Assembly (NCBI GenBank): GCA_022482625.1
Contig: JAKVOU010000001.1
Coordinates: 2,590,784-2,654,783, forward strand
Direction of reading: 5' to 3'
DNA from: Spirochaetia bacterium
Lineage (GTDB): Bacteria; Spirochaetota; Spirochaetia; Sphaerochaetales; Sphaerochaetaceae
Length of the DNA stretch: 64,000 nucleotides
The position numbers and the translations under genes are program-made. The notes below the pieces were generated by a model. The model saw only the letters and a list, made by a program, of their open reading frames with translations, was not told the origin of the DNA and ran no database searches. Positions 49,152 through 59,993 of this stretch are shown here, in pieces; position 1 is the stretch's first letter, and every line of letters starts with the position of its first letter.

Positions 49152-49742
49152 GAAAAATATTGATTGTAGTAAAAAATGAGTTTTGTTGCTTTTGTAGCAA
49201 AATTCTAAAATAAAAATTTGGATATATCGATAATCAGTATGTTAGTAAATGTCATTAAATGGTTAATGATAAAGATTTGATTACTTTGTTGGGGTTTTTG
49301 CAAAGCGTAGAATTGCTTGGACAAATATCCAAGGCCGGTGCATATCTATACAAAAATATGTCTGCATATTTAGAAGTGACTGCACACAGATACTGTATTG
49401 TCTTCTGAGATTTTATGGATATAGGAGAGCGCTTGCACTATCAGATAGTTTGGAGAATTTTGATCTGGAGGTGGTTAATAATGACATATCTATGGGGCAA
49501 CTGGAAGAACATATATGTTGCATCAGAAAAATCGGAAGGGATAGCAATTGTAACTATTTTAGATTAGTTTAATTCTGGTATTTTGAAAGTGAAATATCAA
49601 ATCTCAGAATAATAGAAAGGTTAATGTTTGTTTTATGGATTTTGTACTATGAGTCTGTATACGTGATTGTATTGCTTATATAGTCGATATGTTGGGGTAT
49701 ATTGACTTGAAATTTAAAAGTATGCGTGATACTATCACGTAT
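49152..49742. other. 590-bp AT-rich intergenic region between divergent genes
   Basis: It contains upstream sequence of the aldolase promoter, including two similar motifs TGTAGTAAAAAA (from 49166) and TGTAGCAAAA (from 49193). It also contains the presumed promoter of the AbiL-like pair. No gene recognised. Confidence 0.4.
49725..49739. promoter_or_regulatory. 15-bp palindrome just upstream of the AbiL-like ATPase
   Basis: CGTGATA-C-TATCACG is a perfect 7-1-7 palindrome ending 3 nt before the ATG at 49743. Its position over the promoter-proximal or start region makes it a plausible operator for repression of the defence pair. No Shine-Dalgarno sequence is visible at this ATG. Confidence 0.55.
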
Positions 49743-51107
49743 ATGTTAATACGTTTTAGATTAAACAACATATATTCCTTCGGAAAAGAGAAAGAATTTG
49801 CTATGATATCTGCACCGAGGTTTTCAAGACTGAATAAGCACAAATATCATGCTGGAAGCCTCGAAATACTAAAGCTCTCTGCATTTTACGGAGCAAATGG
49901 TGCAGGTAAATCCAATCTTGTAAAAGCACTTGATTTTTTTAAGTCAATCGTGGTGACAGGCAAACTTCCTAGTTCTCTTGCCCTTCGACGCCTCAGGTTT
50001 TTCCATGAGTCCACTACTCCTACTTTGCTTGGTGTTGAATTTGTTACAGAAGGTATACCTTATCTTTACGCATTGGAAATTGGTGAACAAAATATTCTAA
50101 AAGAAGAATTCTATGTTTCGGGACTGAATGAAAAAGAAGATAAACTTATATTTGAGCGTACGACGAATCAAGATGGAACAGCAACCTTGAAATTTGCTGA
50201 TTCAAAATGGAAACTTAAAGAAAATAAGATGCTTCAGAAAATCATAGAACAGAATCTGCTAAAACAAAATATAATAGCATTGAAGGTATTGGCAGAATTG
50301 GAAAACCCATCCAAAAAAGAAACTAACCAAGCATATGATTGGTTCAGAAAGAAACTTGTAATTCTTACTCCTTCAAGTGTCCCTTCGCTCCTTGTGCAAA
50401 AACTTGATATAGATAAGGAATTTCGTACTTTTGCAGAAGGTATTATTTGTTCCTATGGAGTTGGAATAAAAAAGTTAAAAACTGAAAAGAAAAATATTAA
50501 GGATTTTTTTGGGGATGACAATCCTGCTTCAATGGAGAGTGTTCTTAATAAAATGGATGAGAACCAAAATTCAGCTTTTGAGTTCAGGAATCCAGAGGGA
50601 GAAACTTTTGATGTTGTCCGTGAAAACGGCGCCGTTGTCGTCAAACAATTGAAAACTATGCATACCAGAGAAAATGGGCAAGCTGTTTTATTCGATCTTG
50701 GAGAAGAATCCGAAGGATCGAGGAGGCTGCTTGATTTTCTTCCTGCATTTACAGATGTGATAGCTTCGGATACAACATGCATCATTGATGAAATTGAGAG
50801 GAGCATTCATCCTCTTCTGATAAAAGAAATCATTAAGAAATTTTCATTTGATGATACGACAAAAGGTCAATTGGTATTCACCACCCATGAGTCAAATCTT
50901 CTTGACCAAGAAATCTTGCGGCAAGATGAAATCTGGTTTGTGGAAAAGGATTCTTTTGGGGACAGCGATTTATATTCTCTTTGTGATTTTAAGGAACACA
51001 ATACCAAAGACATCAGAAAGGGCTACCTTGAAGGACGATATGGAGCTATTCCGTTTCTTGCGAATCTGAGAGATCTCAACTGGGACAAATATGATTTTCA
51101 GAAATAG
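49743..51107 (+). CDS. AAA ATPase of AbiL/RloA type
   Basis: The 454-residue protein starts MLIRFRLNNIYSFGKEKEFAM. Walker A FYGANGAGKSN is at residues 48-58, and the C-terminal half has DLGEESEGSRRLLDFLPAF, Walker B TCIIDEIERSIHPLL and QLVFTTHESNLLDQ. This is the layout of AbiLi/RloA-type ATPases. The ATG at 49743 was chosen because the family begins close to the LxNxxSFGxE motif; the longer frame from TTG 49689 would include the palindrome. It overlaps the RloB-type gene by 17 nt. Together they form an abortive-infection type pair. Confidence 0.8.
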   Translation: MLIRFRLNNIYSFGKEKEFAMISAPRFSRLNKHKYHAGSLEILKLSAFYGANGAGKSNLVKALDFFKSIVVTGKLPSSLALRRLRFFHESTTPTLLGVEFVTEGIPYLYALEIGEQNILKEEFYVSGLNEKEDKLIFERTTNQDGTATLKFADSKWKLKENKMLQKIIEQNLLKQNIIALKVLAELENPSKKETNQAYDWFRKKLVILTPSSVPSLLVQKLDIDKEFRTFAEGIICSYGVGIKKLKTEKKNIKDFFGDDNPASMESVLNKMDENQNSAFEFRNPEGETFDVVRENGAVVVKQLKTMHTRENGQAVLFDLGEESEGSRRLLDFLPAFTDVIASDTTCIIDEIERSIHPLLIKEIIKKFSFDDTTKGQLVFTTHESNLLDQEILRQDEIWFVEKDSFGDSDLYSLCDFKEHNTKDIRKGYLEGRYGAIPFLANLRDLNWDKYDFQK

Positions 51108-51741
51108 ATTATACCAAAGGAAACCACCAGATAGAGATGCTACACTTGTCATTATCTATTGTGAGGGAAGCAAAAGAGAACCCCAGTATTTTACTTTTTT
51201 CAAAGGGTTCAGTTCAAGAATTAACCTTGAGATTGTTCCCGCTGATTCCCAAGGTAATAACTCACCTCTTGGTTTATACCAACAAGCATTCCTTGATATT
51301 TTAGATGGTACCCAACGACCTTTGAAGTATGATGTAAGCGATGATGACTGCGTATGGTTTGTCATTGATACGGATACCTGGGGAGAATCCATCGCGAAAT
51401 TAAGAAAGGCGTGTGCACCTTACAAAAACTGGTATGTAGCGCAAAGCAATTCCTGTTTTGAAGTATGGTTGTATTATCACTTTTCTTCGGAGCCAGCAAA
51501 AGATATTATGCAAGACAGTACAGGATGGAAACATGTTGTCGATGCAAAGGTCCCTGGCGGTTTTGACAGCCGAAAACATCCTCTTCTCTTAGCAGATGCC
51601 ATTGATCATGCAAAGCAAAACTTTATAAAAACAGATACAGGAGAGGTATGTTACGGTTCTACAGAAGTGTATCAATTGGGAGAACAGATATACCCGTTGG
51701 TGTCATCTGTGCTTGAGAAAGTAATGGAAGGTACTAAATAA
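51091..51741 (+). CDS. RloB-domain protein (AbiLii-like)
   Basis: The 216-residue protein has IIYCEGSKREPQYFTFFKG near residue 22, CVWFVIDTDTWG near residue 90 and QSNSCFEVWLYYHF near residue 120. These three blocks (EGxxxExxYF, DxDxW, SNPxFExWLxxHF) are the RloB signature with TOPRIM-like acidic residues. It probably acts as the nuclease or toxic effector controlled by the overlapping ATPase. The DNA on either side is mobile-element debris. Confidence 0.85.
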   Translation: MIFRNRLYQRKPPDRDATLVIIYCEGSKREPQYFTFFKGFSSRINLEIVPADSQGNNSPLGLYQQAFLDILDGTQRPLKYDVSDDDCVWFVIDTDTWGESIAKLRKACAPYKNWYVAQSNSCFEVWLYYHFSSEPAKDIMQDSTGWKHVVDAKVPGGFDSRKHPLLLADAIDHAKQNFIKTDTGEVCYGSTEVYQLGEQIYPLVSSVLEKVMEGTK

Positions 51742-52104: not shown

Positions 52105-52499
52105 GTTTGCCCGGCATGGGTGTTATCTAGACGGTGAAAGTCCGTTGCAGGTTGCGATGCAGGAGGAAGAAAACAGACCTGAACTGCTAGCCAGAGGCAA
52201 GGGCGTACCAGCGATGGTGGGTCTGAAGGAAGCCCGAGGCAGGAGTGTAAATGAAGTGGCTGCATGGGATGAAAGACAACATTCTTAACCGGGGAGGTCT
52301 TCGGGGCGACCCAGGCTGCAATGATGCCGTTTGACGGTCGCAGACAAACGAACCCGAAGAAGTCGGCAGAGGCCATAGTAGTGCAGGGAGAGTGCACGAA
52401 GGGCCGAACAATCAGATCTTTCCGAAGGAGGAAAGGCCATCATGCAGAAGACAGACACCTTGAGAGGGGCTTAGCCACGGCATGGGGGAGGAATACCAT

Positions 52500-52792
52500 G
52501 AGGGAAGGAAATCCGCCAATGCCTATGGAAGCAATGGAAGAAGCCTGGGAGGAGGGAGGAGATGCTGAAGAAGCCCTGTCTGCCTCAGGACAGGTGGAAG
52601 CTGAACGACTTCCATGCCTATTCCAGCAACAGGCACTGGTATTTCAGCAAGGCAGTGCTCAATGCATTCATTCCGAAATCGGCGATAATCCAAGAGTACG
52701 GATTGCTTGACATCGAAGCCTATTACAGGCAAGCCAAGCGTATGCCAGGAGAATGGAGACAGACAGACGTGTACGTGAAAGTCGCCAGCTAA
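52500..52792 (+). pseudogene. stub of the intron-encoded reverse transcriptase
   Basis: An N-terminal-like piece (GNPPMPMEAMEEAWEEGG, from about 52505) sits next to a C-terminal-like piece at 52562-52792. The latter reads SSNRHWYFSKAVLNAFIPKS and then EYGLLDIEAYYRQAKR. I read it as the DNA-binding tail of a group II intron protein. The catalytic reverse transcriptase domains (YADD) are absent, so this is a deletion remnant inside domain IV. Confidence 0.5.
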
Positions 52793-52812
52793 CGCTGGGA
52801 TTCGGATCTGAT

Positions 52813-52850
52813 TGAACCGCCGTATACCAGACCGGTACGTACGGTGGTGT
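52813..52850 (+). ncRNA. group II intron domain V
   Basis: A short hairpin with arms CCGCCGTA and TACGGTGG and a GACC-containing tip, followed by GTGTGAGAGG, has the size and place of the catalytic domain V about 50 nt from the intron 3' end. Confidence 0.65.
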
Positions 52851-52921
52851 GAGAGGAAAGGTTCTCCGGTTATCCGGAGAACCCGACCTACTCGATTGTT
52901 TTACCTGATGACAAGTTGCTG

Positions 52922-53557
52922 CTACTTGAAAATCACAGAAGAGTTTTTTGCAACCGAAGGATAACGGGCATATGCTACCAGCAGATGGACGGGGTCGGTC
53001 GTGCTTCCATGGTTGTCCGTGGCAAACAGGTCAATCAAATCATTGTCCAGATAGGTAAGGGCTTTTTGCCGTGTGATGGCATCAGCATCGCATTGGAAGA
53101 GTACTCCCATGGCTTTGAGTTTCTTTGTCAGCGCACTGTCCCATGTAAGCCAAGGGTATTGCTCGATATGTGCGATGATGACTCCATATCCTTTCTTGAT
53201 GACTGCTTCAATTTTTGTAATCAGGTTGGCAGGGACTGCCAGTATAGGGAATTCCACGAGGTAATAATGACCTAAGATCGGAATACCTGTGATTTCCTTT
53301 TCCGTGTCCTTGAGGAAGATTTCTGAACCCAGTAAGCAGGTTAAGCCGAAGCTTCTTGCAAGTTGCCTGCACTGGTCATACGTCTCCCGTATGTTCGTTA
53401 CGTCAGTGTGTATGTATGGGTTGAACAGATGCGGCGTAACGACTAGTGTCGAAATATGGCATTGGGCGTACCTTGAGAATATCTGAGGCAATTTCCTGTA
53501 AGTACGTAATCCTCCGTCAATATTAGGTAATAAATGTGTATGAATATCCGCGTACAT
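52922..53557 (-). CDS. PHP-domain phosphatase, CpsB/YwqE-like, paralogue A
   Basis: The 211-residue protein starts MYADIHTHLLPNIDGG, with metal His6 and His8. TPH is at residues 41-43, GSEIF near 75, IIAHIEQYPW near 127 and FATDNHG near 185. CpsB/YwqE proteins are Mn-dependent tyrosine phosphatases that act on capsule or tyrosine-kinase partners. No kinase or capsule gene is present here. Compared with the usual IDDG, position 15 is Gly. The family's final DxH motif is kept (DNH). No Shine-Dalgarno sequence precedes the ATG. Its C-terminal end lies 25 bp from the intron end. Confidence 0.8.
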   Translation of the reverse strand: MYADIHTHLLPNIDGGLRTYRKLPQIFSRYAQCHISTLVVTPHLFNPYIHTDVTNIRETYDQCRQLARSFGLTCLLGSEIFLKDTEKEITGIPILGHYYLVEFPILAVPANLITKIEAVIKKGYGVIIAHIEQYPWLTWDSALTKKLKAMGVLFQCDADAITRQKALTYLDNDLIDLFATDNHGSTTDPVHLLVAYARYPSVAKNSSVIFK

Positions 53558-53894: not shown

Positions 53895-54536
53895 TTAAAG
53901 GAAGATGGCTGCTGCTTTTTTCGCTACGGAAGGATACCTGGCATAAGCCAGTATCAATTTGTCTGGAGCATCGGCGGTTTTTCCATGGTGATTGGTAGCA
54001 AAGACATCGATCAAATCTCTGTCAAGATACGTGCGTGCTTTTTGCAATGTGATGTTTGCTGCGTCACATTGGAAAAGAATGCCACGGGCTTGTAGTTCTT
54101 TGAAGATTTTCGAATCCCAAGTTATCCATGAATAACGTTCAATGTGGGCTATGATGATTTCGTATCCCATTCCCAGTGCCTTGTCAAATTTTTGGAGAAA
54201 ATCATTGCTTGGTGGTGCCATGGCTGGAAGTTCGATGAGATAGTAACGACCATCAATTGGAATTCCTTCGATATCAAGTTCACTGTCCCTGAGGAATATT
54301 TCGGAGCCCAAATAGCAATGGATTCCAAAAGTTTCTGCAAGTTGCCTGCAAGACGTATAGGTATCATAGATACTAGGTATCTGCGTATGGACATACGGAT
54401 TGAACAGGTGGGGAGTGAATACTACCGAGGAAACGTTGCATGCTGCGTATTCAGAAAGAATCTGTAATAGGCGTTTCTTATTCTGCAGTCCGTCATCAAT
54501 GCCGGGTAGCAGGTGTGTGTGTATATCTGTGTACAT
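53895..54536 (-). CDS. PHP-domain phosphatase, CpsB/YwqE-like, paralogue B
   Basis: The 213-residue protein starts MYTDIHTHLLPGIDDG, with SSVVFTPHLFNPYVH near residue 40, GSEIFLRDSE, IIAHIERYSWITWDS near 127 and FATNHHGKT near 185. His6, His8, Asp15, the TPH His, the Glu and the ERY-block His of the metal centre are kept. The last metal motif reads NHH instead of the family's DxH. The start follows the other paralogues; an ATG 18 nt upstream is the alternative. TATAAT ends 6 nt before the ATG, implying a leaderless mRNA. Confidence 0.8.
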   Translation of the reverse strand: MYTDIHTHLLPGIDDGLQNKKRLLQILSEYAACNVSSVVFTPHLFNPYVHTQIPSIYDTYTSCRQLAETFGIHCYLGSEIFLRDSELDIEGIPIDGRYYLIELPAMAPPSNDFLQKFDKALGMGYEIIIAHIERYSWITWDSKIFKELQARGILFQCDAANITLQKARTYLDRDLIDVFATNHHGKTADAPDKLILAYARYPSVAKKAAAIFL

Positions 54537-54542
54537 GATTTG

Positions 54543-54548
54543 ATTATA
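54543..54548 (-). promoter_or_regulatory. -10 box of leaderless paralogue B
   Basis: TATAAT on the minus strand ends 6 nt before the ATG, so transcription should begin at or next to the start codon. A GTATCAT element lies about 18 nt upstream of the -10, as in paralogue D. Confidence 0.55.
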
Positions 54549-55154
54549 TGGCATTAATATTTATTAATGATACTAAAATTTTGTATTACCACAAACATTT
54601 TCTATATTTTAATCAAAATTATTATAGCTTTTAATTTTTTATGATTATAAATATCTTAGGTGCCTTATTCCTTATGTGATATAGATAAGGAATCTGTATT
54701 GCTAATCTATATATTGATTGAATATATATTATATGAGTTACAGTCATATTTAATATGATGAACAGTGTCATGATATTTGAAAATATCATTAGGGGGAAAT
54801 ATGACTTATGGTCTTGTATAATAAAATTGATTTGCGAAAATAATAAAACAACATTTCAGAATGGCAAAATGAAATCCTTTTGAGAAAATTCTGCTATAAC
54901 TTGCATGGAAAAATGTTTTAGGGGAAAATTCTTCCTGATCTTTTGAATTACTGAAGGATATTGGCTATAGGCCAATACTAACTTTTTCAAAACATCAATA
55001 GTTTGCCCGTGATCTTAGATTCTTACAACTCATAAAGAGGACGAAGGGTCGAATTCAAGCTTGAAGTAGATGTCCTTCTGTTCCTCCATGACCTCTTAAC
55101 CAACGGATACTCATGTGGAAATCGACACTTTCATCGAGGTGAAAAAGGAGCATC
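54549..55154. other. 600-bp AT-rich spacer
   Basis: It carries TTTGTGGTAATAC (minus strand, near 54582-54596), a motif shared with the upstream region of paralogue D. The rest shows no gene or clear repeat. Its right part, from about 55020, may already belong to the dead IS debris. Confidence 0.4.
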
Positions 55155-55375
55155 TTGATGCGGGATCCCCTGAGGTTCTACTCTTTGCAAACCAAAATCC
55201 AAGCAAGGAGGAACGAGGAGTTGCTCAAGATGCCCATAATTGAGAGTATACGGAAATTGAAAATGGATGGCTATACGCCGACGGAGATTGCACGGAGCCT
55301 GGACATCAACAGAGGGACCGTCTACAAGTACCAGGACAGGACGGACTACGATATCGGCATCGATGAGGTGAAGAT
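55155..55375 (+). pseudogene. N-terminal fragment of IS21-type transposase (IstA-like)
   Basis: The frame contains MPIIESIRKLKMDGYTPTEI and ARSLDINRGTVYKYQDRTD, an IstA-type helix-turn-helix. Soon after, near 55375, it runs into sequence that belongs to a different transposase on the other strand. Only about 50 residues are meaningful, so this is a dead remnant. Confidence 0.5.
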
Positions 55376-55620
55376 GATTTTCAGGCCTGAAGTAATGTCC
55401 AGTTCCTTGTCGATACAGTCAAACAGGTACGTGGTACCGTAGAAAGATATTTTGGGAAATACCTCAGCAGTCGGTTCAACAACTGACTTGTTTCTGTACC
55501 TGCCATCGGTCGGGAGGATTTCACTGGTAACATCGTTGACAAGTTTGATACCTCCCCCTCTCCCCGTCTGTTCTTGGACTGTTTGAATTCCTTGACCCAG
55601 TACGACTTGGATTAATACGC
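55370..55620 (-). pseudogene. N-terminal fragment of a second DDE transposase (IS1634/IS4-like)
   Basis: The minus strand reads SYWVKEFKQSKNRRGE, then after one frame change GIKLVNDVTSEILPTDGRYR and FYGTTYLFDCIDKELDI. The order (SYWdKE.KQ.r.kR, then G.i...TGE..PT, then YGt.YLlD.I...L.I) is the usual N-terminus of IS1634/IS1182-like transposases. It abuts the IstA fragment, so two broken elements are fused here. Confidence 0.5.
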
Positions 55621-56226
55621 ATAGGTTATTCCTGACCTTTTATTCTTCTGATGGGCAATTTCCATATCTGCTTTCTGCATTATGTATTGTAGCACATAAC
55701 GATGTCCAAGATAATAGGAATTGACAAGTAATATGCATCAAGAAAAGGAAATATGTCGAATTCGATACCTGATTATCGTTAGGTGTTTTGGGAGAGTAGG
55801 TTGAAAAGAGAATAAAGACCTTTAGCTGGCCGGATGATGGCTTCTATAGATGTCTATGATGCCTCGATAAGTACCCGTCCGTCCAAGCGCATATTCTCTC
55901 ATAAGGAAGCAAATAATCTGATTATTGAAGGAACCAGGGCCCATTTTATCTTCGTGTTACTGAATGAATTTCTATAAATATAGAATAAGATAAAAGAAAT
56001 TGCAGAGAAGCATCGACCATCGGGTGAACAGATCATGTATTACTGATGAAACTTGAGGGCCTTCTTGTTGTTTCCGTTTTTCTGTCCATGGCTATGATTA
56101 TAAATTGAAGAGTTCACGGAGGAAGGAATTAAAATTCAGACTTCCTGAAAACATTATGGAATAAGTCATAGACTGGTGCCATGCAGCAGACAGGAAGTCA
56201 TAATTTACCTCCAAATATAATAAAGA
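55621..56226. other. 600-bp spacer with uncertain mobile-element debris
   Basis: A 47-codon plus-strand frame from about 55836 (MMASIDVYDASISTRPSKR...) is open without a recognised match. The rest is AT-rich. Nothing else can be supported. Confidence 0.35.
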
Positions 56227-56868
56227 TTAAAAAAATAGATTGGCTGCCTTCTGTGCTACAGAAGGATACTGTGCATAAGCTGATATCAGTTTGTCAGGGT
56301 TGTCAGTGGGTTTCCCATGATGGTTGGTGGCAAAGATATCAATCAGGTCTCTTTCAAGATACGTACGGGCTTTTGGCAATGTGATATTTGCTGCATCACA
56401 CTGAAAAAGAACTCCACGTGCCTGTAAATCTTTGAAGAGTTTTGAGTCCCAGGTCAACCAAGGATAGCGTTCAACATGGGATATGATAATTCCATAACCC
56501 ATGTTCAGTACCTTGTTAATTTTTGGGAAAAAATTACTACCTGGTGGTGCTACAACCGGAAATTCGATGAGGTAATAGCGACCGTAAATGGGGATTCCTT
56601 CGATATCAGCTTCAGTGTCCCTGATGAATATTTCGGAGCCCAAATAGCACTGGATTCCAAAAGATTCTGCAAGTTCTTTACAAGACATATACATACTATA
56701 GATGTTGGTCAAATTAGTATGGATGTCTGGATTGAACAAGTGGGGAGTGAATACTACCGAGGAAACGTTGCATGCTGCATATTCAGAAAAAATCTGAAAT
56801 AAGCGTTCTTTGTTCTGCAACCCGTTATCAATTTCGGGCAACAGATGGGTGTGTATATCTATGTACAT
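56227..56868 (-). CDS. PHP-domain phosphatase, CpsB/YwqE-like, paralogue C
   Basis: The 213-residue protein starts MYIDIHTHLLPEIDNG. TPHLFNPDIH lies near residue 41, then GSEIFIRDTE, IISHVERYPWLTWDS near 127 and FATNHHGKP near 185. It is closest to paralogue B. Both variable metal positions differ from the family: residue 15 is Asn and the last DxH motif is NHH. It may therefore have altered or no phosphatase activity. TATAAT ends 6 nt before the ATG and no Shine-Dalgarno is present. An in-frame TTG start lies 18 nt upstream. Confidence 0.8.
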   Translation of the reverse strand: MYIDIHTHLLPEIDNGLQNKERLFQIFSEYAACNVSSVVFTPHLFNPDIHTNLTNIYSMYMSCKELAESFGIQCYLGSEIFIRDTEADIEGIPIYGRYYLIEFPVVAPPGSNFFPKINKVLNMGYGIIISHVERYPWLTWDSKLFKDLQARGVLFQCDAANITLPKARTYLERDLIDIFATNHHGKPTDNPDKLISAYAQYPSVAQKAANLFF

Positions 56869-56874
56869 AATCTT

Positions 56875-56880
56875 ATTATA
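56875..56880 (-). promoter_or_regulatory. -10 box of leaderless paralogue C
   Basis: TATAAT (minus strand) ends 6 nt before the ATG at 56868. No ribosome-binding site lies between. Confidence 0.55.
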
Positions 56881-57828
56881 TAACAATATTGATTTGTAGA
56901 AAGATTTTTATTTGGAAAAAAACCATATATTTTTTGTGCATGCATCAACATTATTATATATAAATATGTTTTCTTATAAATAATCTTAGCTTTCTTATTT
57001 CTCTTTATTTTACAGATAATATCACTATAATTTAATGAGTTATACAAAATAAAATAGATATAATAAAAGTTACAATTATATAATATTTAATATTGAATGT
57101 TGTTTTTTAATAACTTATTTAAAGAGTATAGATAATTTATTTTGCACTTTTACATTGATGGTAATAATGTGAATTTACAATGAAATCGGGGAATACCAAT
57201 AACATAAATACTATTTTCGAAGTTTTTATGTTTCTTGTAGTAAATCTGTACAGATAGGTTTAAAAAATATATGAAGCTATGTTTAACGTATGATAAGTGT
57301 TGGTATGATATTAGTACTATTGGCAGAGATATCAACTTCCTTTTTGTCGTTTGTCCATGAATAAGACATCCTGCATATAGATTATTATTGTACAGTATTT
57401 AAAATCAATCACTATAAGAAATTAATATTGTAAAAAGAAAATATAAGTCCAGTGTTGATTGTTATAATCGGGAACTGTAAATAATATTAGGGCAATGCTC
57501 AGAAATAATATAGAGAATATCAGGGTTATCGAAAACTGTATGTATCGATGAATAAGGTATAGCTTGCTTATCATAGCCTGTTTCTAGTACTGTGTTGGGT
57601 GATAGATAAATCCTGTATTCATAATCACTGCTATTAGAATATAAGTTGACAGTTGGAATCAATTGACCCGACTTTATCACAGAAACTCTTTGGTATCATG
57701 TTGGGTGTAATATCGGAAGGATTAATGTAGACAGGTCACCTATACAGTGTGTATTATGGCACAAAAATCTACGCTAGTTTGTATAAGGAAGGGTGCTAGC
57801 TTTTGTTATGATGTGTATGTGCAAATTT
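56881..57828. other. 950-bp very AT-rich spacer
   Basis: A minus-strand frame at 57462-57680 (72 codons, containing SNSSDYEYRIYLSPNTVLET) has protein-like composition but no good start or ribosome site. It may be the tail of a lost gene. No other signal recognised. Confidence 0.4.
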
Positions 57829-58470
57829 TCAGATAAAAAGCTTTTCTGCTTTTTCTGCTACAGATGGGTAACGGTTATATGCTAGTACCAATTTGTCTGG
57901 TGCATCGATGGTTTTTCCATGGTTGTTGGTAGCAAAGATATCAATTAAATCTCTTTCCAGATAGGCCTTGGCCTTTTGTAAAGTAATATTATCTGCATCA
58001 CATTGGAAAATCACACTGCGATTCTGCAATTCCTGGAAGATTCTTGAATCCCAACTTAGCCAAGCATAACGTTCAATGTGAGCTATTATGATGTCATAGC
58101 CCATTTGTTGAGCCCTTTCAATCTTTTTCAGGAAACTATTACTTGGCGGTGTCATAGCTGGAAATTCAATGAGATAGAAGCGGCCATCAATCGGGATTCC
58201 TTCAATGACAAATTCTGTATCCTTGATAAATATTTCAGATCCCAAATAACAGCGGATCCCAAAAGTTTCGGCAAGTTCCCTGCAAAACGCATATGTACTG
58301 AAGATGTTAGGTATGTCCGTATAAATATATGGGTTGAAAAGGTGAGGAGTGAACACTATAGAAGAAATGCCACATGTTGCATATTCAGAAAAAATCTGAA
58401 ACAAAGATTTTTTGTTCCGCAATCCATCATCGATGTTGGGGAGCAGGTGTGTGTGTATATCAGCATACAT
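57829..58470 (-). CDS. PHP-domain phosphatase, CpsB/YwqE-like, paralogue D
   Basis: The 213-residue protein starts MYADIHTHLLPNIDDG, with SSIVFTPHLFNPYIY near residue 39, GSEIFIKDTE, IIAHIERYAWLSWDS near 127 and FATNNHGKT near 185. Asp15 is kept, but the last motif reads NNH in place of DxH. TATAAT ends 7 nt before the ATG, with no Shine-Dalgarno. Upstream sequence (TTTGTGGTATAAC, GTATCATAATAAATA) is shared with paralogue B, so the duplication unit included the promoter. Confidence 0.8.
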   Translation of the reverse strand: MYADIHTHLLPNIDDGLRNKKSLFQIFSEYATCGISSIVFTPHLFNPYIYTDIPNIFSTYAFCRELAETFGIRCYLGSEIFIKDTEFVIEGIPIDGRFYLIEFPAMTPPSNSFLKKIERAQQMGYDIIIAHIERYAWLSWDSRIFQELQNRSVIFQCDADNITLQKAKAYLERDLIDIFATNNHGKTIDAPDKLVLAYNRYPSVAEKAEKLFI

Positions 58471-58477
58471 ATTTTGG

Positions 58478-58483
58478 ATTATA
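58478..58483 (-). promoter_or_regulatory. -10 box of leaderless paralogue D
   Basis: TATAAT (minus strand) ends 7 nt before the ATG at 58470. TATCAT lies 17 nt upstream of it, in the -35 position. Confidence 0.55.
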
Positions 58484-58976
58484 TAATGGTACTATTTATT
58501 ATGATACATTTTTTTTGTTATACCACAAATACTTTTTATGTTAGCATCAATATTGTTGCATTCTGTGCTTTTTTTTTGACAATTTTACTCATTTTATTAT
58601 TTATTATACTGATAAAAATAATTATTATATAAATTAATTATATAGCTAGTTATTAGTTTGTTCTTATTTTGTTTGGTCCAGCTGATTATTGTTGCCATAT
58701 AATTGGCCAATTTATTAGAATCTATACTCATTAATTTGTTTTTATATATGTAATACTTAATTATTTGTATTTCATTGAATCTGGAGACTGACTGGATATT
58801 GATGAGATTGATTACTTGCTTGATATTTGTCAGTTTGCCTAGAATCTGTGTTCTTTGCCTTGAATGACAGGATATATCTATTTTTTCATGGATGATATTG
58901 AGCTACAGGTACTAATTATATTGCTTGGTTAAGTTGTGCTACGAGGTATGTATGGATATGCTTTCAGAAATGAGAG
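58484..58976. other. 490-bp AT-rich spacer between divergent genes
   Basis: It contains the upstream element of paralogue D (minus-strand TTTGTGGTATAAC near 58518-58530). It also contains the promoter region of the plus-strand barrel gene, including an ATG at 58970 that is out of frame with it. Nothing else recognised. Confidence 0.4.
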
Positions 58977-59633: not shown

Positions 59634-59993
59634 GTTTGCCCGGCATGGGTGTTGTACAGACAGTGAAAGTCCGTTGCAGGTTGCGATGCAGGAGGAAGGA
59701 AACAAACCTGAACTGCTAGCCGGAGGCAAGGGCGTACCAGCGACGGTGGGTCTGAAGGCAGCCCGAGGCAAAGTCCCGAGCCAACGGACAGAAATTTCAT
59801 ACAAGGCAAGCCTGCCGGATAAATCTGCCAAACAAGACGAAGTCCGATCGCGAGGCAGGAGTGCAGATGAAGTGGCTGCATGGGAAGAAAGGCAACAAAC
59901 ATTCTTAACCGGGGAGGTCTTCGGGGCGACCTAGGCTGCAATGATGCCGTTTGATGTAGACAAACGGACCCGAAGAAGTCAGCAGAGGCCATA
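59634..59993 (+). mobile_element. 5' fragment of the same group II intron (copy 2)
   Basis: It is nearly identical to 52105-52377 but retains the about 82-bp segment missing from copy 1 (59771-59852). It ends abruptly after GCAGAGGCCATA, just before the viaA 3' end. Domains II-VI are absent, so it is dead. It has the same orientation as copy 1, 7.5 kb away, with the PHP array between them. Confidence 0.85.

Follow-up and report, generated by a model that had tools for sequence, protein, structure and literature searches.

Putative leaderless start regions in a multiplied PHP gene family of a Sphaerochaetaceae genome

In a 64,000-nucleotide stretch of a Sphaerochaetaceae genome (the window; G000:C1:2590784-2654783, part of a 3.47-Mb genome), three PHP genes, B, C, and D, together with a related copy, E, located outside the window, are likely transcribed singly from a -10 TATAAT that ends 6-7 nt before the ATG, with translation initiating at the 5' AUG of a leaderless mRNA. 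The initial annotation had proposed leaderless mRNAs for B, C, and D. At the level of sequence, that proposal is supported by the retention of the layout in E and in three sister species, by a terminator in the latter that limits where the promoter can lie, and by a class of genes with the same layout in this genome.

The PHP Gene Family and Its Surroundings

The window holds four intact PHP genes (A-D) of the CpsB/CapC family, all on the minus strand between positions 52922 and 58470, as well as a remnant of a seventh copy; two more copies, E and F, occur outside the window in the same genome (Table 1). Copy E has 56% identity with D. The PF19567 profile matches A-D over their whole length (84-92 bits; cut-off 27), placing them in the CpsB/CapC PHP family, whereas the NCBIfam Cps4B equivalog scores 53-57 bits against a cut-off of 400 and thus does not take them in. 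No match to the PHP proteins was returned by PADLOC, and copy D as a query against named genomes found nothing.

The D-x-H metal-ligand motif, Asp-x-His in CpsB, has Asn in place of Asp in B, C, and D (N-x-H) and reads N-x-Q in E (L006 1501-2133). The D-x-H that belongs to a complete set of PHP metal ligands is thus kept only in A and F. As the Asp is lost in B-E and kept in A and F, several of the PHP copies may be catalytically altered.

The cluster is adjoined by an AbiLi/AbiLii-like pair, and fragments of group II introns (n=2; ~90-93% alike) are located on either side of it. Neither fragment showed an intact long ORF.

Table 1. Positions of the PHP copies, their upstream elements, and neighboring features. 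Positions are those of the window unless preceded by C1.
Feature	Position	Strand	Remarks
PHP copy A	52922..53557	-	211 aa, CpsB/CapC family; TACTAC at -10 position, no SD; D-x-H metal-ligand motif kept
PHP copy B	53895..54536	-	213 aa, putative leaderless gene; ATG at 54536
PHP copy C	56227..56868	-	213 aa, putative leaderless gene; ATG at 56868
PHP copy D	57829..58470	-	213 aa, putative leaderless gene; ATG at 58470
PHP copy E	C1:2582382-2583014
PHP copy F	C1:19057-19683
Seventh PHP copy, remnant	54925..55029	-	C-terminal piece, one internal stop
TATAAT, putative -10 box of B	54543..54548	-	ends 6 nt before ATG
TATAAT, putative -10 box of C	56875..56880	-	ends 6 nt before ATG
TATAAT, putative -10 box of D	58478..58483	-	ends 7 nt before ATG
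Rival upstream TATAAT of B	54621..54626	-	84 nt before ATG; counterpart in C at 56953-56958; absent from D
GTTTGTGGTAATA block of B	54584..54596	-	common to D as TTTGTGGTAT, 58520-58529; ~50 nt before ATG
AbiLi/AbiLii-like pair	49689-51741	+	AAA ATPase and partner
Group II intron fragment	52105-52896
Group II intron fragment	59634-59993
AAA_21 ATPase gene	C1:1358006-1359253		L120, with ~200 nt before it

Start Regions of Copies A-F

A -10-like box ending 5-8 nt before the start codon is present in five of the six copies: as an exact TATAAT in B-E (with a gap of 7 nt in E), and as TATTAT in F, at 6 nt. For B, C, and D, the positions given in the initial annotation were re-found exactly. Its further descriptions, that none of the four copies in the window has a Shine-Dalgarno (SD) sequence and that A lacks a TATAAT as well, also agree with our reading of the upstream regions, and the search of the 20 nt upstream of the ATG found no SD in A-E. 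The annotation had set this against the presence of an SD in most other genes, which is true at the level of ~60-65% (33 of 55 crude gene calls in the window; 482 of 736 in a 0.86-Mb sample). Copy F has an AGGAG 1 nt before its ATG and a same-strand gene 77 nt ahead, which make it ambiguous, as it may instead be part of a transcript that starts upstream. The leaderless reading does not cover A and F with confidence.

Leaderless genes are known from bacteria, where they form a minority, and we take the start site and ribosome mode from established knowledge of their mRNAs. The housekeeping RNA polymerase would bind the TATAAT of B, C, D, and E, and transcription would start at the A of the ATG (B and C) or within a few bases of it (D and E). 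A 70S ribosome would then start on the bare 5' AUG without SD pairing. The transcript ends themselves, 70S initiation, and the expression of all of B-E are what we infer from this layout. The -35 hexamers of B, C, and D are poor (best 2-3 of 6), so that either the perfect -10 box would suffice or an activator would help. TTTGTGGTA(T/A), common to B and D and located ~50 nt upstream, is a candidate site.

Further perfect TATAATs occur upstream of the ATG in B (84, 107, and 191 nt), C (84 and 206 nt), and D (132, 153, and 166 nt). The best rival to leaderless transcription derives from these: the mRNA would start from the TATAAT ~90 nt upstream (84-nt gap in B and C), or from one further away, and would carry an AT-rich, unstructured, SD-less leader, and the box beside the ATG would be a relic or a weak secondary promoter. 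Both B and C have the 84-nt box, in homologous surroundings; the distant promoter of C is TTTATA-16-TATAAT, matching at 10 of 12 positions; and upstream blocks are partly conserved between B and D. However, D has lost the 84-nt box, with AACAAT in its place, and none was seen in E, F, or the sister species; by contrast, B-E and the sister species all retain the box adjacent to the ATG. A simple promoter scan of the region gave 22 promoter-like sites against a mean of 28.4 in shuffled DNA; sites no more numerous than in shuffled DNA cannot decide between the promoters. We regard transcription from the distant boxes as unlikely.

In B and C, the reading frame continues upstream across the TATAAT without a stop as far as an in-frame ATG (B) or TTG (C), raising the question of whether these ORFs begin there, with the TATAAT being coding sequence (Tyr-Asn) and no promoter. 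These upstream start codons have no SD, and in copy E the box is present but is preceded by a stop and by no start codon. In addition, relatives share the N-terminus M-x-x-DIHTHLL, whose start is only a few residues ahead of the first metal-ligand histidines, while the extension is not conserved, which makes the upstream starts of B and C unlikely. Of the explanations weighed here, this one appears the least probable.

Conservation of the Box

AT-rich DNA often yields TATAAT. The upstream regions are ~26% GC (37% for the longer one of B), and the local rate of the hexamer is 0.003-0.004 per base, or one every 250-300 nt. The position could thus be one of chance, inherited by recent duplicates and without function. 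A box at 6-7 nt in three of four genes has a probability of 1e-6 to 2e-6 if the copies are independent, and a first-order Markov model reproduced three of four boxes in none of 20,000 trials. The upstream homology of B, C, and D reaches at least -90, so that the agreement among them is partly inheritance and the probability from independence is not strictly valid; conservation was tested instead. All six positions of the hexamer are identical across B, C, D, and E, as compared to nine of the 43 other aligned upstream columns. The hexamer is thus conserved far above its flanks, and its position stays at 6-7 nt both among diverged copies and among other species of different base composition, including a genus sampled by a genome of 58% GC (g12, below). 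Against this, composition and chance make a very improbable explanation.

Two Layouts of the PHP Gene in Relatives

A PHP homologue was found in 48 of 100 relatives searched, as a single copy in each, and 46 of the 48 loci were examined. The gene is adjoined by an AAA_21 ATPase gene (AbiLi-like profile) in 42 of the 46, often with a CobO-like gene ahead (L008-L036, L093-L106). PHP and the AAA_21 ATPase are a conserved, uncharacterized pair.

Two layouts of the start region occur among these loci. In the leadered layout, a TATAAT is located 17-21 nt before the start codon with an SD between the two (g2, g3, g6, g15, g16, g18, g21, one g5 species, and one g10 species). In the other, a -10-like box ends 6-7 nt before the ATG with no accompanying SD (g1, which is the present genus; g12; g17; and one g8 species). 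Two further species have a -10-like box at 8-9 nt. The single PHP genes of the present genus have TATACT at 6 nt (L011 and L019) or TATAAT at 7 nt (L015), and no SD was found within pairing range in these three. In g12, whose sampled genome is 58% GC, all six PHP genes have TTGCNN-18 nt-TANANT before the ATG, the gap being 6 nt in five of them and 8 nt in the sixth. Placed on the protein tree, the two layouts require ~5 changes, at least three of them by well-supported branches, with changes counted without direction. The putative leaderless layout appears from this comparison to be the genus's version of a promoter that is located ~12-14 nt further upstream in other genera of the family and is accompanied there by an SD-bearing leader.

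A Promoter Without Its Gene

In the three sister species, a terminator hairpin with a T-tract occurs 57-62 nt upstream of the PHP ATG. PHP transcription in these species must therefore restart within those 57-62 nt. The evident promoter within that stretch is TTCACT-17-TATACT-6-ATG (L011 and L019).

The present genome has the ATPase gene at another place (Table 1), 72% identical to that of G001. Ahead of it are the same terminator and, as in the sister species, the GGATATACT promoter (TATACT), but no PHP gene stands between this promoter and the ATPase, which is now preceded by a leader of its own carrying GGAGG. Since terminator and promoter were kept in this genome after the loss of PHP, the TATACT is likely a true -10 element, and the PHP mRNAs of the sister species would start at the ATG. 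The arrangement indicates that PHP left its ancestral place in this genome and survives solely as solitary, multiplied genes.

Other Genes With the Same Layout

A genome-wide search for a leaderless class, as the initial annotation had suggested, was carried out on 862 kb (about a quarter of the genome) with crude gene calls, taking the expectation from positions 10-47. Among the genes without an SD (n=249, PHP removed), 13 have a -10-like box at 6-7 nt against 2.8 expected (Poisson P 7e-6, or 3.5e-5 with a repeated transposase counted once). Among the genes with an SD (n=481), there is no peak, with one such box against 8.1 expected. The same peak is seen in samples of relatives (10 vs 2.6 in G001, 4 vs 0.3 in G014, and 4 vs 0.7 in G049). 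By its sequence signature, then, a class of putative leaderless genes exists in this genome, with the excess restricted to genes lacking an SD.

The genes concerned, named by eye from their translations, include MutS, MazG-, LacI-, and GntR-like proteins with TATACT at 6 nt, and CarD- and MnmE-like proteins with TATAAT at 7 nt. MutS has TATACT or TATAGT exactly 6 nt before the start and no SD in four of four species of the genus, and the box is absent at that position in most other genera. The nearest named MutS records are those of Pleomorphochaeta and Sphaerochaeta. The many copies of a repeated transposase-like gene (366 aa) also have the layout (L048, L117, and TATACTCAACATATG sites in the present genome).

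The exact pattern TATAAT-N6-ATG occurs at 40 sites genome-wide, as compared to 20 for the reversed pattern, with nearly all sites inside genes or noncoding DNA; B and C are the only clear gene starts among the 40. Because counts of this pattern are uninformative alone, boxes were instead placed relative to called gene starts. TATACT-N6-ATG occurs at 50 sites, as compared to 21 for TATACT-N12-ATG. About half of the first 30 N6 sites start ORFs of at least 150 aa near the beginning of the ORF, whereas at most one of the 21 N12 sites does.

Discussion

A single gene family occurs in an SD-led and a leaderless layout, apparently built on one and the same promoter in related genera. As the promoter has also outlived its gene in one genome, the family offers a usable natural series for how genes switch their kind of translation start, including the case of a gene lost and a promoter kept. 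To our knowledge, leaderless translation has rarely been studied outside actinobacteria, Deinococcus, and archaea. More speculatively, and with considerable doubt on our part, PHP may have left the PHP-ATPase operon and multiplied with compact promoters, in which case its expression would depend on leaderless initiation, and the copies with lost ligands may be regulators or decoys instead of enzymes. If so, their expression would be favored, for example, by a shift in ribosome or initiation-factor balance.

The leaderless layout itself is not new among spirochaetes. Genes of the TA-led kind were predicted in six of 18 spirochaete genomes, which had 1.8-6.9% leaderless genes, according to the parts of the survey by Zheng et al. 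2011 (PMC3160421) used here. As in these, copies B-E have a TANNNT ~12 bp before the start codon and no SD. The present lineage is not discussed in those parts of the survey and, unlike the genes described there, one duplicated family here keeps the layout in most of its copies. In Leptospira interrogans, likewise a spirochaete, ~440 leaderless mRNAs with a 5' UTR under 10 nt were mapped by dRNA-seq (PMC5243855). The Leptospira ends are from measured transcripts, and that work found no clear -10 motif, whereas those proposed here derive from sequence and have a plain TATAAT or TATACT. A literature search joining Sphaerochaeta with leaderless found no paper. Less ordinary than the layout are the occurrence of PHP as solitary, multiplied genes and the absence of a metal-ligand Asp from B-E, where it has been lost; the switch of layout within one family and the surviving promoter likewise merit attention.

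The proteins resemble the CpsB/YwqE tyrosine-protein phosphatases of the PHP superfamily (PDB 2wjd, 3qy8, 3qy6), with a nearly whole-length match to CpsB (E 5e-12) and to PF19567. They differ from these in falling far below the Cps4B cut-off (55 vs 400 bits), in that the PHP of relatives is encoded with an AAA_21 ATPase, and in that B-E have Asn for the metal-ligand Asp.
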